The translations under genes and the position numbers were made by a program. The notes beneath the pieces are model-generated. The model saw only the letters and a program-made list of their open reading frames with translations, was not told the DNA's origin and ran no database searches. From contig CAJXSW010000002.1 of NCBI GenBank assembly GCA_913060645.1, positions 1-64,000 of the forward strand: DNA of 64,000 bases, read 5' to 3'. This DNA comes from an uncultured Dokdonia sp. GTDB taxonomy: Bacteria > Bacteroidota > Bacteroidia > Flavobacteriales > Flavobacteriaceae. Below, in pieces: positions 27,589-32,143 of this stretch. Within the stretch, counting starts at the first letter, position 1, and each line of letters starts with the position of its first letter.

Positions 27589-27652
27589 ATGTATAGTTTA
27601 AAAAAGTGATGATGTTAAAAGTACTAAATAGTAGTCGGCTTAATGGGGTTAC

Positions 27653-27666
27653 GCTTTCGCGAAAGC
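27653..27666. repeat. TTTCGCGAAA palindrome copy 13 (intergenic)
   Basis: GCTTTCGCGAAAGC, 18-bp symmetric, in the divergent nitrilase / radical-SAM region. Confidence 0.95.
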
Positions 27667-27757
27667 GTGCTTATTTCTTTCAATACCATTCACAAAATTT
27701 GAGATGCAATCCATAAATTAGGAATTATTCCATAATTTTGTTTTAAATCCTATTGCT

Positions 27758-29044
27758 ATGAATTTCGAACGTATTAAAGAAAAGCTCAACATCCTCGCAG
27801 ATGCTGCAAAATATGATGTCTCTTGCTCTTCTAGTGGAAGTAAGCGTGCAAATAAAAATAAAGGCTTAGGAGATTCTAGTGGCATGGGAATTTGCCATAC
27901 CTATACAGAAGATGGACGATGTGTATCGTTATTGAAAATCTTACTTACTAATCATTGCATTTTTGACTGTGCATATTGCGTGACTCGCAAAAGTAATGAT
28001 GTAAAACGTGCCGCTTTCAAAGTGCAAGAGGTAGTGGATCTCACCATCAACTTTTACCGTAGAAATTATATTGAAGGCTTATTTTTAAGTAGCGGTATTT
28101 TTAAAAATGCCGACTATACAATGGAGCGCCTGGTTCTAGTTGCTAAGAAACTACGTCTTGAAGAAAATTTTAATGGCTATATCCATCTCAAATCTATTCC
28201 TGGAGCGAGTGACGAGTTAATGAGAGAAGCAGGACTTTATGCCGATAGACTTTCGGTAAATATTGAAATACCCACTGAGCAAGGCCTCAAACTACTCGCT
28301 CCAGATAAAAAGCGCGAAGACTTTATAAAGCCTATGCTTAAGGTTAAAAATGAAATCATCCAATATAAAAGTGAGAAGAAGCTTATAAAAAGCACTCCTA
28401 TATATGCACCCGCTGGACAAAGTACCCAAATGATTATAGGTGCTACTGGCGAGACAGATGCTCAAATCATGTACACAAGCGCATACTTTTATAAAGAATT
28501 CCAGATGAAAAGGGTGTACTACTCTGGTTACATCCCTATAAGTCATGACGAGCGATTACCTTCTATAGGTACAGATGTGCCTATGTTACGAGAAAATAGG
28601 TTGTATCAAACAGACTGGCTATTGCGATTTTATGGATTTAGCATACAAGAATTACTTAACAAAGAACATCCTAATCTTGAAACGGATATCGACCCAAAAT
28701 TAAGTTGGGCACTACGCAACTTACAGCACTTCCCTGTAGATGTAAATCATGCAGACCGCAGATTGCTCGCTCGCATTCCTGGTGTAGGAATGCGCTCTGT
28801 AGATAAAATTATTAACGCACGTAGATATAGAAAACTGGGCTGGGAACATCTTAAAACTATAGGCATCTCTATGAATCGTGCTCAGTATTTTCTCGTTTGC
28901 GCCTCTTCACAATTTGAAACAAAAGACCGCACCGCTGCACAACTTAAAAGTTTAATCATGGGAACCTCTGCTAGTAAATGGCGAGGTGCTTACAGCAGCC
29001 AGCTTAACCTTTTTGAATCTAATGCAAATGTAACTGTGTCGTAA
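27758..29044 (+). CDS. Putative DNA modification/repair radical SAM protein
   Basis: 428 residues. The radical-SAM [4Fe-4S] motif CxxxCxxC is Cys67, Cys71, Cys74 (CIFDCAYC), with three further Cys residues upstream (23, 46, 55). A helix-hairpin-helix-like region lies near the C-terminus (NHADRRLLARIPGVGMRSVD), consistent with DNA binding. This is the family described as a radical SAM protein linked to uracil-DNA-glycosylase-like genes (the TIGR03916 type). It is followed 1 bp later by its usual partner (TIGR03915 type). The chemical reaction is not established to my knowledge; a role in DNA base modification or repair is inferred from domains and co-occurrence. Confidence 0.9.
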   Translation: MNFERIKEKLNILADAAKYDVSCSSSGSKRANKNKGLGDSSGMGICHTYTEDGRCVSLLKILLTNHCIFDCAYCVTRKSNDVKRAAFKVQEVVDLTINFYRRNYIEGLFLSSGIFKNADYTMERLVLVAKKLRLEENFNGYIHLKSIPGASDELMREAGLYADRLSVNIEIPTEQGLKLLAPDKKREDFIKPMLKVKNEIIQYKSEKKLIKSTPIYAPAGQSTQMIIGATGETDAQIMYTSAYFYKEFQMKRVYYSGYIPISHDERLPSIGTDVPMLRENRLYQTDWLLRFYGFSIQELLNKEHPNLETDIDPKLSWALRNLQHFPVDVNHADRRLLARIPGVGMRSVDKIINARRYRKLGWEHLKTIGISMNRAQYFLVCASSQFETKDRTAAQLKSLIMGTSASKWRGAYSSQLNLFESNANVTVS

Positions 29045-29045
29045 G

Positions 29046-29816
29046 ATGGGAATGATAGATCAATATATCTATGATGGAAGTTTTGAGGGTTTTCTCACTG
29101 CAGTATTTGAGGTTTATGACCGTAAACCTACACGAGTAAAAATTGTAAGCGAGCGACTAGTCACCGAAAATTTCTTTGATGAGGAGCATACAATATATAC
29201 AGATCAAGCAAAATCTGATCGTGTATGGAAAGGTATTGAAGATAAAATAGGAAAGAAGGCGGGAAATCTCATTTACAAAGCATTTTTAAGTGAGCAATCA
29301 GATAGAGAACAGGTGCTTTTACGTATTATTAAAAAAGGATTTAAAGGTGAAAATGTGACAGACAACTTTGCAGATATCGACGTTTTGAGACTTACCAATT
29401 TGGTTAAAATTGTAGGACGCGAGAAACATAGAATGGATGCCTTTATAAGATTTAGACTCACTAAGGACAACGTTTATTTTGCAGAGGTAGAACCAGATTT
29501 TGATACATTACCACTCAATGCAATCCACTTTAAAAATAGATATGCAGATCAAAAGTGGCTCATCTATGATCGCTGCAGGAATTATGGGATTTTTTATGAT
29601 TTAAAGACTGTCAACTATGTGCAGCTTGAAATCTCAAATGATATTAATAGTAGTCTTGCTGCGCCATTTTACTTCACCCATGATGAAATGCACTATCAAG
29701 ATTTATGGAAAAACTATTTTAAAAGCACCAATATTCCTTCTCGCAAAAACATGAGATTGCACTTACAGCATGTACCTAAGAGATACTGGAAATATTTAAG
29801 TGAGAAGCAGCCGTAA
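29046..29816 (+). CDS. Putative DNA repair protein, partner of the radical SAM gene
   Basis: 256 residues of the TIGR03915/DUF4130 type. Recognisable features are YIYDGSFEGFLTAVFEVYD at the N-terminus, the block VLRLTNLVKIVGREKHRMDAFIRF and an aromatic, His-rich C-terminal part (KNRYADQKWLIYDRCRNYGIFYD, split by a turn; MHYQDLWKNYFKSTNI; HVPKRYWKYL). In many bacteria this domain is fused to, or next to, a uracil-DNA glycosylase; here it is alone. Start codon 1 bp after the upstream stop indicates one operon. Catalytic residues are not known. Confidence 0.88.
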   Translation: MGMIDQYIYDGSFEGFLTAVFEVYDRKPTRVKIVSERLVTENFFDEEHTIYTDQAKSDRVWKGIEDKIGKKAGNLIYKAFLSEQSDREQVLLRIIKKGFKGENVTDNFADIDVLRLTNLVKIVGREKHRMDAFIRFRLTKDNVYFAEVEPDFDTLPLNAIHFKNRYADQKWLIYDRCRNYGIFYDLKTVNYVQLEISNDINSSLAAPFYFTHDEMHYQDLWKNYFKSTNIPSRKNMRLHLQHVPKRYWKYLSEKQP

Positions 29817-29829
29817 ATAGGGTCATTAC

Positions 29830-29843
29830 GCTTTCGCGAAAGC
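29830..29843. repeat. TTTCGCGAAA palindrome copy 14 (intergenic, convergent)
   Basis: GCTTTCGCGAAAGC 14 bp after the repair-protein stop. The 60-bp convergent gap contains no ordinary T-tract terminator hairpin. Confidence 0.95.
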
Positions 29844-29876
29844 GCAACTAAGACTTATAAAAAAATAAAAGTATTC

Positions 29877-30326: not shown

Positions 30327-30367
30327 GTATCCTGTTTTTAATAATATAAAAATACATATTCAAGATG

Positions 30368-30375
30368 TACCTTTG
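30368..30375 (+). promoter_or_regulatory. Promoter -7 element for dxs
   Basis: TACCTTTG matches TAnnTTTG and ends 4 bp before the ATG at 30380. This argues against the upstream in-frame ATG at 30365 and for a leaderless dxs transcript. Confidence 0.5.
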
Positions 30376-30379
30376 TAAC

Positions 30380-32143
30380 ATGCCAGAGAGTATTCTTGAT
30401 ACTATAAAAACACCGAGCGATTTGCGTCTATTGACGCAAGAGCAACTACCCCAACTTGCCGTAGAGCTTCGTCGTTTTATTATTGATATTATTGCGACTA
30501 AGGAAGGTCATCTAGGCGCTAGTTTAGGAGTTGTAGAAATTACAATTGCCTTACACTATATATTTAACACTCCAGAAGACAATCTTATCTGGGATGTGGG
30601 TCACCAAGCATACGGGCATAAAATACTAACTGGAAGAAAAGATGTTTTTCATACTAACAGGCAAAAGGGCGGCATAAGTGGTTTTCCTAACCGTATGGAG
30701 AGTGTGTATGACACCTTTGGCACAGGTCACAGTAGCACTTCCATCTCTGCAGCGTTAGGTATGGCGATGGCCGCAACATTAAAGGGCCAAAAAAATAGAC
30801 ATCATATCGCCGTAATAGGAGATGCCTCTATAGCGAGCGGAATGGCTTTTGAAGGACTCAATCATGCCGGAGTAACTAATGCTAACCTACTAGTAATTCT
30901 TAACGACAATGCTATAGGAATTGACCCAAGTGTGGGAGCACTTAAAAAGTATCTAACTAACGTAAAGAAAGGCACTGCTAGAGAAGACAACATCTTTGAA
31001 GCGCTTAATTTTAAATATTTTGGCCCAGTAGACGGCCATGATCTACCTAAAATACTAGAAACCTTAGATGCTCTTAAAAAAGTAAAAGGTCCAAAATTCT
31101 TACATGTAATTACCACAAAAGGAAAGGGACTAGCCCTCGCCGAACAGGAACAGATCACCTATCACGCGCCTGGGAAATTTGACGCTATTACTGGCATCAG
31201 AGTAAAGAAAGAGGAAATAGCAGAACCTCCAAAATACCAAGATGTTTTTGGGCATACCATCGTAGAGCTCGCAACACTTAATAAAAAAATTATAGGTGTT
31301 ACACCTGCCATGCCTACAGGAAGTTCCCTTAAGTACATGATTGCTGCTTTTCCCGATCGTGCGTTTGACGTAGGTATTGCAGAGCAACATGCCGTAACCC
31401 TTTCCGCAGGAATGGCTACAGAGGGAATGGTAGTTTTTTGCAACATTTACTCTACTTTTTTACAACGGGCATACGACCAAATTATTCATGATGTCGCGTT
31501 GCAAAATCTACCTGTGATTTTTTGTTTAGATCGCGCCGGCCTCGTGGGGCAAGACGGCGGAACTCATCAAGGTGTCTTTGATCTAGCATATCTCAATTGT
31601 ATACCTAATCTCATTATATATGCCCCAAGTGATGAGATTGCGCTTCGCAATATTTTATATACTGCACAACTTGGATTAGAACATCCTATTGCCATACGAT
31701 ATCCTCGCGGTCGCGGTATTCATATAGACTGGCAGCTTCCTTTTAAAAAAATAGAAATAGGCAAAGGGCACTGTATTCAGCAAGGTGAAAATGTTGCCAT
31801 TATAAGTATAGGAAGCATTTTAAACAATGTTCTGGCAGCGGTAGAACAATCTAAAAATGAATGCGGTATTTATGACATTGGCTTTTTAAAACCAATTGAC
31901 ACCGACTTATTAGACAAGATTTTTGAAAAATACAATCATATCGTTACTGTGGAAGATGGCTCAAAAATAGGTGGACTGGGTAGTGTTGTGGGTGATTACG
32001 CTTTCGCGAAAGCGTACAAAGGTAAACTCACCGTCCTAGGAATACCAGACGCGTTTATAGAACATGCCACCGTAGAAGAGCAATATGAAGAAGCTGGAAT
32101 ATCTGTAAACGCAATCACAAGATTTCTTAAAAATCTTGCATAA
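30380..32143 (+). CDS. dxs: 1-deoxy-D-xylulose-5-phosphate synthase
   Basis: 587 residues from the ATG at 30380; an ATG 15 bp upstream lies on top of the promoter element. A thiamine-diphosphate enzyme condensing pyruvate and glyceraldehyde-3-phosphate, first step of the MEP isoprenoid pathway. GHLGASLGVVE carries the catalytic-type His, GDASIASGMAFEGLNHAG is the ThDP/Mg motif (usual GDGA replaced by GDAS), and DRAGLVGQDGGTHQG belongs to the transketolase pyrimidine domain. It is shorter than E. coli Dxs (620). A palindrome copy encodes YAFAKAYK near the C-terminus. Confidence 0.96.
   Translation: MPESILDTIKTPSDLRLLTQEQLPQLAVELRRFIIDIIATKEGHLGASLGVVEITIALHYIFNTPEDNLIWDVGHQAYGHKILTGRKDVFHTNRQKGGISGFPNRMESVYDTFGTGHSSTSISAALGMAMAATLKGQKNRHHIAVIGDASIASGMAFEGLNHAGVTNANLLVILNDNAIGIDPSVGALKKYLTNVKKGTAREDNIFEALNFKYFGPVDGHDLPKILETLDALKKVKGPKFLHVITTKGKGLALAEQEQITYHAPGKFDAITGIRVKKEEIAEPPKYQDVFGHTIVELATLNKKIIGVTPAMPTGSSLKYMIAAFPDRAFDVGIAEQHAVTLSAGMATEGMVVFCNIYSTFLQRAYDQIIHDVALQNLPVIFCLDRAGLVGQDGGTHQGVFDLAYLNCIPNLIIYAPSDEIALRNILYTAQLGLEHPIAIRYPRGRGIHIDWQLPFKKIEIGKGHCIQQGENVAIISIGSILNNVLAAVEQSKNECGIYDIGFLKPIDTDLLDKIFEKYNHIVTVEDGSKIGGLGSVVGDYAFAKAYKGKLTVLGIPDAFIEHATVEEQYEEAGISVNAITRFLKNLA
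32000..32013. repeat. TTTCGCGAAA palindrome copy 15 (coding, AFAKA frame, 20-bp form)
   Basis: TACGCTTTCGCGAAAGCGTA inside dxs, read as Y-A-F-A-K-A-Y. Confidence 0.95.

Follow-up and report, generated by a model that had tools for sequence, protein, structure and literature searches.

A radical-SAM and DUF4130 gene pair in an uncultured Dokdonia sp. is probably an SOS-induced, clamp-recruited operon for the processing of DNA lesions

On what does a radical S-adenosylmethionine (radical-SAM) enzyme act when its gene is followed, one base later, by that of a DUF4130 protein? The question is raised by a stretch of 64,000 nucleotides from an uncultured Dokdonia sp. (positions 1 to 64,000 of contig CAJXSW010000002.1, assembly GCA_913060645.1), hereafter the window, which is part of a genome of 3.1 Mb in an assembly that is 89% complete. 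A sequence-only reading had taken the two genes for a DNA modification or repair pair with an unexplained chemistry, and our literature searches found no known reaction for them. We propose that the operon, on balance, probably encodes an SOS-induced complex, recruited to the replication clamp, in which the radical-SAM enzyme processes DNA lesions; that the pair acts on DNA in the damage response is very likely. The family itself is known, and what is new here is a clamp-type motif in the enzyme, a predicted DHH-like fold of the partner, the decay of the partner tail in genomes that lack the enzyme, and an analysis of the operators. The two genes are:

27758..29044, forward strand: radical-SAM protein of family TIGR03916 (rSAM_link_UDG), 428 amino acids (open reading frame call and profile matches)
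29046..29816, forward strand: TIGR03915/DUF4130 partner protein, 256 amino acids (open reading frame call and profile matches)

The two open reading frames (ORFs) lie on the same strand, and base 29045 alone separates the stop codon of the first from the ATG of the second. Each protein exceeds the curated cut-off of its family by a wide margin (TIGR03916, 661.4 bits against 343.5, over profile positions 1-415 of 415; TIGR03915, 284.1 bits against 112.25, full-length), and a Pfam scan gave Radical_SAM at 38.8 bits for the first protein and DUF4130 (PF13566) at 169.3 bits for the second. Order and spacing are also those of the known pair, whose radical-SAM member we take to be COG4277, and the nearest relatives were found in Dokdonia and other Flavobacteriaceae. 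A PDB sequence search with the partner gave no relative at E-values up to 1, and with the radical-SAM protein it gave marginal radical-SAM matches besides a match to RuvA. The DUF4130 protein was called a predicted mutagenesis-related enzyme in 2013, and was linked to SplB-like radical-SAM proteins and uracil-DNA glycosylase (UDG; PMC3765255).

The pairing of the two genes is near-obligate. In a GTDB phylum sample of 198 genomes, 60 carry both genes, two the enzyme only, two the DUF4130 gene only and 134 neither (Fisher p 1e-45, with the genomes counted as independent and kinship ignored). TIGR03916 matched in 109 genomes, from which we counted the 60 over the cut-off and two with split or fragmentary genes (G052 and G060) and dropped 47 with weak matches of at most 28.2 bits, nearly all of them on the helix-hairpin-helix (HhH) part; all 62 genomes matching TIGR03915 were kept. 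Both enzyme-only genomes (G024 and G121) have the gene at a contig edge, and both DUF4130-only genomes (G134 and G033) have damaged copies. The two genes share one contig and one strand, with the partner downstream, in 59 of the 60 pairs; the pair is split in G178, and the largest gap is about 1.4 kb. Likewise, the enzyme is followed by the partner at 14 of 15 loci from plasmid and phage collections (L112-L126), which come from the Bacteroidota, the Alpha-, Beta- and Gammaproteobacteria, the Clostridia, the Fusobacteria and one gut scaffold. At the remaining locus, on a plasmid record of Gemmatirosa, the enzyme is a distant paralogue (TIGR03916 302.7 bits, below the cut-off); no TIGR03915 was found on that record, the chromosome being outside the search. 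Caulobacter vibrioides, a laboratory model, served as a control and matched the enzyme, partner and UdgX models. The sequence-only reading was thus correct in describing the genes as a pair and the pair as widespread. Separately, genes that we identified by eye lie between the two in two genomes, namely a ParD-like antitoxin gene in G012 (L160, 1897-2175) and an alpha/beta hydrolase gene in G166 (L161, 1334-2215).

The first line of evidence for a role in the damage response lies directly upstream of the operon:

27721..27731, no strand assigned: SOS operator GGAATTATTCC (a perfect palindrome of the form GGA-N5-TCC), 26 bp upstream of the first start codon
27702..27712, no strand assigned: possible degenerate second operator AGATGCAATCC, with one mismatch (picked out by eye)

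The possible second site is placed 19 nt upstream of the perfect one, and in relatives with three sites the last two are 18-20 nt apart. GGA-N5-TCC is the SOS motif of the Bacteroidetes, and a two-gene COG1573-COG4277 operon, described as a UDG-based system, is listed among the putative members of their SOS regulon, as predicted from motifs (PMC8565304). The earlier view of the pair as unexplained stands in that no result of ours names the lesion or the chemistry, but what is presumably the same operon type had already been listed as a putative SOS member. The window's genome contains 31 GGAWWWWWTCC sites, 26 of them inside ORFs of more than 120 amino acids and five outside, one of these near a contig end. 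The four remaining sites precede the window operon, dinB, umuD-umuC and an RNase_T/GIY-YIG exonuclease gene, and the last three are of gene types that belong to the published Bacteroidetes SOS regulon (PMC8565304). Furthermore, a partial S24 repressor at a contig edge of the genome is 60% identical to an S24 repressor that flanks a DUF4130 gene. Among relatives, GGA-N5-TCC occurs within 150 bp upstream at 41 of 80 loci, with at least two copies in 37 of those 41, against a background of 167 of 8233 tiles (2.0%) and an expectation of 0.3 of 80 from shuffled upstream regions.

Boxes of other SOS types precede homologues in other clades. The Gram-positive type of SOS box, GAAC-N4-GTTC, is present with at most one mismatch at all four clostridial-type loci, where 0.03-0.1 are expected per 250 nt. 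GTTC-N7-GTTC lies upstream at all five alphaproteobacterial-type loci, including a viral-collection contig (L158), and in the four of these that were counted whole the upstream copy is the only one; the start codon in Novosphingobium is uncertain, so that the position of its box, -112, is approximate. In Caballeronia, CTGT-N8-ACAG is found at -29 before the gene. GTTC-N7-GTTC is named for the Alphaproteobacteria and CTGT-N8-ACAG for E. coli in PMC8565304, and for CAC3343-CAC3344 of Clostridium acetobutylicum control by LexA has been proposed from independent motif and expression work (PMC3828012). At 29 further loci of the GTDB phylum, CTAA-N5-TTAG was seen at six (a raw count, without a background rate), one of these sites (L085, +24) falling after the start used, and GGA sites were seen at two, the one in L111 (-118) standing alone. 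As an SOS motif for the window locus, CTAA-N5-TTAG with one mismatch was rejected, with 38 sites in the window against 51.7 expected by chance. Two transcriptome studies also name a homologue among up-regulated genes, one on desiccation of Acinetobacter (PMC13130816) and one on Fusobacterium in coculture (PMC9848294).

The second line of evidence is the C-terminal end of the radical-SAM protein, which reads ...SSQLNLFESNANVTVS and contains the following motif:

29000..29014, forward strand: QLNLF, residues 415-419, a motif of the beta-clamp-binding type (from the sequence; low-confidence C-terminus)

QLNLF is the beta-clamp motif of UmuC, and the consensus of such clamp motifs is QL[S/D]LF (PMC3716654). 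QLxLF lies within the last 30 residues in 102 of 122 distinct homologues and nowhere else in them, compared with 0.3% of shuffled tails and none of 799 other ORFs of at least 250 amino acids. The Q and L are invariant in an alignment of 22 rows although the preceding sequence varies. The tail that holds the motif (residues 407-428) has a predicted local distance difference test score (pLDDT) below 50 in our model. Outside the Bacteroidota, the strict motif is present in six of 11 tails, and the other five read QLSLGF, QLSIF, QLSLI, QLSLL and QLSFF. Among the openly available papers listed in our literature searches, we found no statement of a clamp motif for the TIGR03916 family. From the motif, we consider it fairly likely that the enzyme docks on the clamp. 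It would then resemble the SOS-inducible clamp binders UmuC, DinB and ImuB: the operator type is common to the window operon, dinB and umuDC in this genome, and the C-terminal motif is identical to that of UmuC as published, the genome's own DinB running off a contig end. The difference is that the window protein is a radical-SAM enzyme and no polymerase, which would mean a different chemistry at the same place. With the operator, the clamp-type tail and the boxes in other clades, the assignment of the pair to DNA is better supported than it was from the sequence-only reading.

Three further features of the enzyme bear on its chemistry and on its contact with DNA:

27956..27979, forward strand: radical-SAM motif C67-x3-C71-x2-C74 (Pfam, alignment)
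27824..27922, forward strand: codons of C23, C46, H47 and C55, an invariant putative auxiliary metal site (alignment)
28733..28825, forward strand: helix-hairpin-helix segment, residues 326-356 (sub-threshold HHH_3, RuvA match, motif)

The protein has cysteines at positions 23, 46, 55, 67, 71, 74 and 381, and in the 22-row alignment only the first six are invariant, together with H47. The pattern C-x(20-34)-CH-x7-C-x11-CxxxCxxC is kept in 124 of 125 homologues, a set with 122 distinct sequences of which about two thirds are close Flavobacteriaceae. The invariance fits an auxiliary cluster at C23/C46/H47/C55. The exception is again the Gemmatirosa paralogue, without a TIGR03915 gene on its plasmid, which suggests, from this one case, that the site goes with the DUF4130 partner. 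The HhH signature [RK][IV]PGxG occurs in 125 of 125 homologues, HHH_3 scores 21.6 bits on the window protein, below the cut-off of 27, and the RuvA match in PDB covers residues 252-372 and spans the HhH segment (E 1.4e-4). The CxxxCxxC motif, the three extra cysteines upstream of it and the C-terminal HhH-like segment, all pointed out from the sequence before, have thus held up, the last with a sub-threshold HHH_3 score. The radical-SAM model, built from an alignment (A3) of 47 rows that are mostly close Flavobacteriaceae, has a pLDDT of 66, with residues 18-59 and 61-79 below 50.

The partner protein consists of two parts:

29046..29687, forward strand: predicted DHH-superfamily-like fold, residues 1-214, without the DHH triplet (predicted model)
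29730..29813, forward strand: conserved C-terminal segment from about residue 229 (alignment; low confidence in the model)

Its model is good, at a pLDDT of 88, but over roughly the last 26 residues (from about residue 231) the mean drops to about 47. With Foldseek at E-values up to 0.001, the only matches were two chains of a PAP phosphatase, and a structural aligner gave, over residues 1-214, PAP phosphatase at Z 9.6, bacterial RecJ at 8.2-8.7, archaeal RecJ-Cdc45 at 7.9 and replisome chains, presumably Cdc45, at 7.7. RecJ, Cdc45 and PAP phosphatase are grouped in the DHH superfamily. By its predicted model, the partner may have a two-lobed fold like theirs, but the protein is shorter and has no DHH triplet, as read by eye, and it is probably not a phosphoesterase. 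The low-confidence tail is conserved at R233, N235, P244, W248 and E253, and is the obvious candidate for a contact with the enzyme. It is damaged in both genomes without the radical-SAM gene, which fits such a role: in G134, where the DUF4130 gene stands beside an S24 repressor gene, the profile match breaks off at position 195 of 243, and in G033 conserved residues such as R165, R233 and W248 are lost (by eye). G134 also has a small ORF (L168, about 1842-2028), placed after the S24 repressor gene and before the shortened DUF4130 gene or in the reverse order; it ends in QLSLF, a motif of the clamp type, and is by eye unlike the radical-SAM protein.

These features can be combined into a working model. 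An S24-type SOS repressor would keep the operon off through GGAATTATTCC until DNA is damaged. The radical-SAM protein could then dock on the replication clamp by its C-terminal QLNLF and hold the DNA with its HhH segment, and the 5'-deoxyadenosyl radical would attack the damaged nucleotide, either in a direct reversal or as the radical first step of a repair, which might be a nick, strip or cross-link step; a second cluster at C23/C46/C55 may possibly help the attack. The DUF4130 protein would be a RecJ/Cdc45-like domain after loss of the DHH triplet, bound to the enzyme, probably by its conserved tail, and would present single-stranded or fork DNA to it. That this is true repair, and not modification, we regard as likely. 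Should the SOS response bring the enzyme to the replication clamp, a radical enzyme would be at work on the fork, and the candidate substrates would be limited to lesions that forks encounter. Three single features of the pair, namely its clamp motif, the additional cysteines and the partner tail, each lend themselves to a test.

Several observations weigh against this model. None of the tested operators was found at the Spirosoma, Acinetobacter or Fusobacterium loci, GGA-N5-TCC was not found in 39 of the 80 relatives, and none of six patterns was found at 21 of the 29 further loci; SOS control is therefore not universal, or it runs on other motifs. The one-mismatch rule for the clostridial boxes was set after the exact GAAC-N4-GTTC had matched Pusillibacter alone. 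The 122 homologues with which the clamp-type motif was counted are mostly close relatives, and outside the Bacteroidota, as said, little more than half of the tails have its strict form. A relaxed form is met by all 124 counted sequences, but also by 5.6% of shuffled tails and by 14 of the 799 control ORFs, which were called mechanically and many of which are probably not genes. The enzyme model is weak, and poor exactly at the putative auxiliary-cluster region. Finally, the likeness of the partner to the DHH superfamily is modest, with a best Z of 9.6 at a root-mean-square deviation (rmsd) of 5.3, and with many rows at Z 7-8, a level that is commonly seen. Among the 39 relatives without GGA-N5-TCC, AACATATGTT was seen at five (against two of 4022 tiles) and TATCATAnTATGA at four (against none of 4022); these words were chosen after the sequences had been inspected, are carried by up to nine of the 39 loci and are possibly diverged SOS operators.

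How a lesion would be processed allows for more than one explanation. One hypothesis is a direct reversal like that by spore photoproduct lyase (SPL), in which the enzyme would take a hydrogen off a pyrimidine lesion and so bring back the original base, a mode put forward for the SplB-like partners of DUF4130 proteins; we hold it to be possible, if tentative. The SOS control of the operon fits this hypothesis, and a solved SPL appears among the folds similar to the barrel, at Z 7.8. In the same comparison, made with the low-confidence model, higher scores, of Z 9.4-10.1, were obtained for lipoyl synthase, HydE, HydG and biotin synthase, lipoyl synthase being the top match (Z 10.1, rmsd 4.2, 216 aligned) with the other three within 1 of it. 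Lipoyl synthase also has three cysteines before its radical-SAM motif, but we found no kinship in sequence beyond the superfamily. The Pfam and NCBIfam libraries contain SPL models, and no SPL family is among the Pfam matches at E-values up to 1 or the NCBIfam matches at E-values up to 0.001. SPL has a conserved cysteine downstream of the cluster that acts as hydrogen donor and thiyl relay; there is no invariant cysteine after C74 in the 22-row alignment, so that this relay is without a counterpart downstream of the cluster. The data do not place the enzyme in the SPL family. With SplB, which is predicted to be SOS-regulated in the Bacteroidetes (PMC8565304), it has the radical-SAM barrel and the context of DNA damage in common, but the HhH segment and the C-terminal QLxLF are additions of the window enzyme.

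The pair could also process lesions derived from deoxyuridine or from abasic (AP) sites, or AP-type cross-links, at replication forks, which we regard as rather unlikely. In the Proteobacteria, a fused UdgX would capture the uracil site covalently, and the radical-SAM part would finish or undo the job. The fused form of the Alpha- and Betaproteobacteria has the same radical-SAM neighbour upstream and the same TIGR03915 domain, but adds a C-terminal UdgX domain with a cross-linking His that is absent from the window protein. At the four such loci scanned, the second protein is a fusion of TIGR03915 to TIGR03914/UdgX (244-349 bits for the latter), and in a fifth fusion, from Novosphingobium, UdgX motifs lie downstream of TIGR03915. 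The five fusions keep GEQPGD and HPSxxLR, and the cross-linking His is retained in all of them, in KRRxH in four and in RRRLH in Phaeobacter. UdgX excises uracil and stays covalently bound through this His to C1' of the AP site (PMC10359453). The earlier statement that the partner is not fused to a UDG is right for the window, where there is no fusion and no UdgX was found in the genome at its 89% completeness, but the type fused elsewhere is the cross-linking UdgX and no ordinary UDG. SRAP was likewise not found in this genome, which suggests that the pair probably also works without a protein that caps AP sites. Complementarity with Ung proved uninformative: across the 198 genomes, having Ung neither rules out nor calls for the pair, and the reverse holds as well; presence follows family, and the window's own genome has both.

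A more specific version, which we consider doubtful, joins this idea to the clamp-docked model. The SOS-induced enzyme, tethered to the clamp, would act where forks have stalled; its inactive RecJ/Cdc45-like partner would place the single-stranded DNA in the active site, and a uracil- or abasic-derived adduct or cross-link would be resolved by radical sugar chemistry. In the fused form, this lesion would be the one capped covalently by UdgX. If so, the pair would repair DNA by a route other than excision, photoreversal or translesion synthesis.

That the enzyme installs an epigenetic or protective DNA modification, and repairs no damage, is improbable. The name of the NCBI family, "DNA modification/repair", allows for both, and in one annotated Parabacteroides locus the opposite strand carries queF, queC and a methyltransferase gene some 1-3 kb downstream of the pair. 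However, a tail of the clamp type and the SOS-type operators seen across several clades fit repair or tolerance, and in none of the nine annotated plasmid loci is the pair immediately followed by a same-strand gene for a methyltransferase or a nuclease. Least probable by far is a substrate among tRNAs or small metabolites, with an incidental link to DNA: the nearest named radical-SAM families are metabolic (weak matches of homologues to ThiH, LipS1 and CofG/H, and the lipoyl synthase fold), but the HhH signature in all 125 homologues, the SOS-type operators, the clamp-type motif in 102 of 122 and the fusion to a uracil-DNA-binding domain all point to DNA.

A viral origin of the pair was considered and is unlikely. 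In IMG/VR, a profile scan yielded two relatives, one of them on a sphingomonad-like contig (L158, 2983-4779), where by eye the radical-SAM gene lies beside prophage-like genes and a hemerythrin-like gene comes after it; an adjacent DUF4130 gene is absent there. Of the ten matches in the phage collection, eight are gut records named "Bacteriophage sp." and two are Acinetobacter "phage" records; the Acinetobacter record examined, "Acinetobacter phage MD-2021a" (L125, CAKLQH020000003.1), carries glyQ and glyS besides the gene pair and is therefore probably host chromosome.

Two observations concern the assembly and the surroundings of the operon. Contig ends of the window's assembly (L156, L157 and L170) show what is presumably Nextera adapter-like sequence (at the start of L170) and its typical translation. 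A perfect palindrome of 16 bp, CGCTTTCGCGAAAGCG, brackets the operon with copies at 27652-27667 and 29829-29844; another copy, at 31999-32014, lies inside an ORF (30365-32143), and there are 15 copies in the window (mean of shuffles 0), while the 3.1-Mb genome has 503, against 0 for the reversed control.

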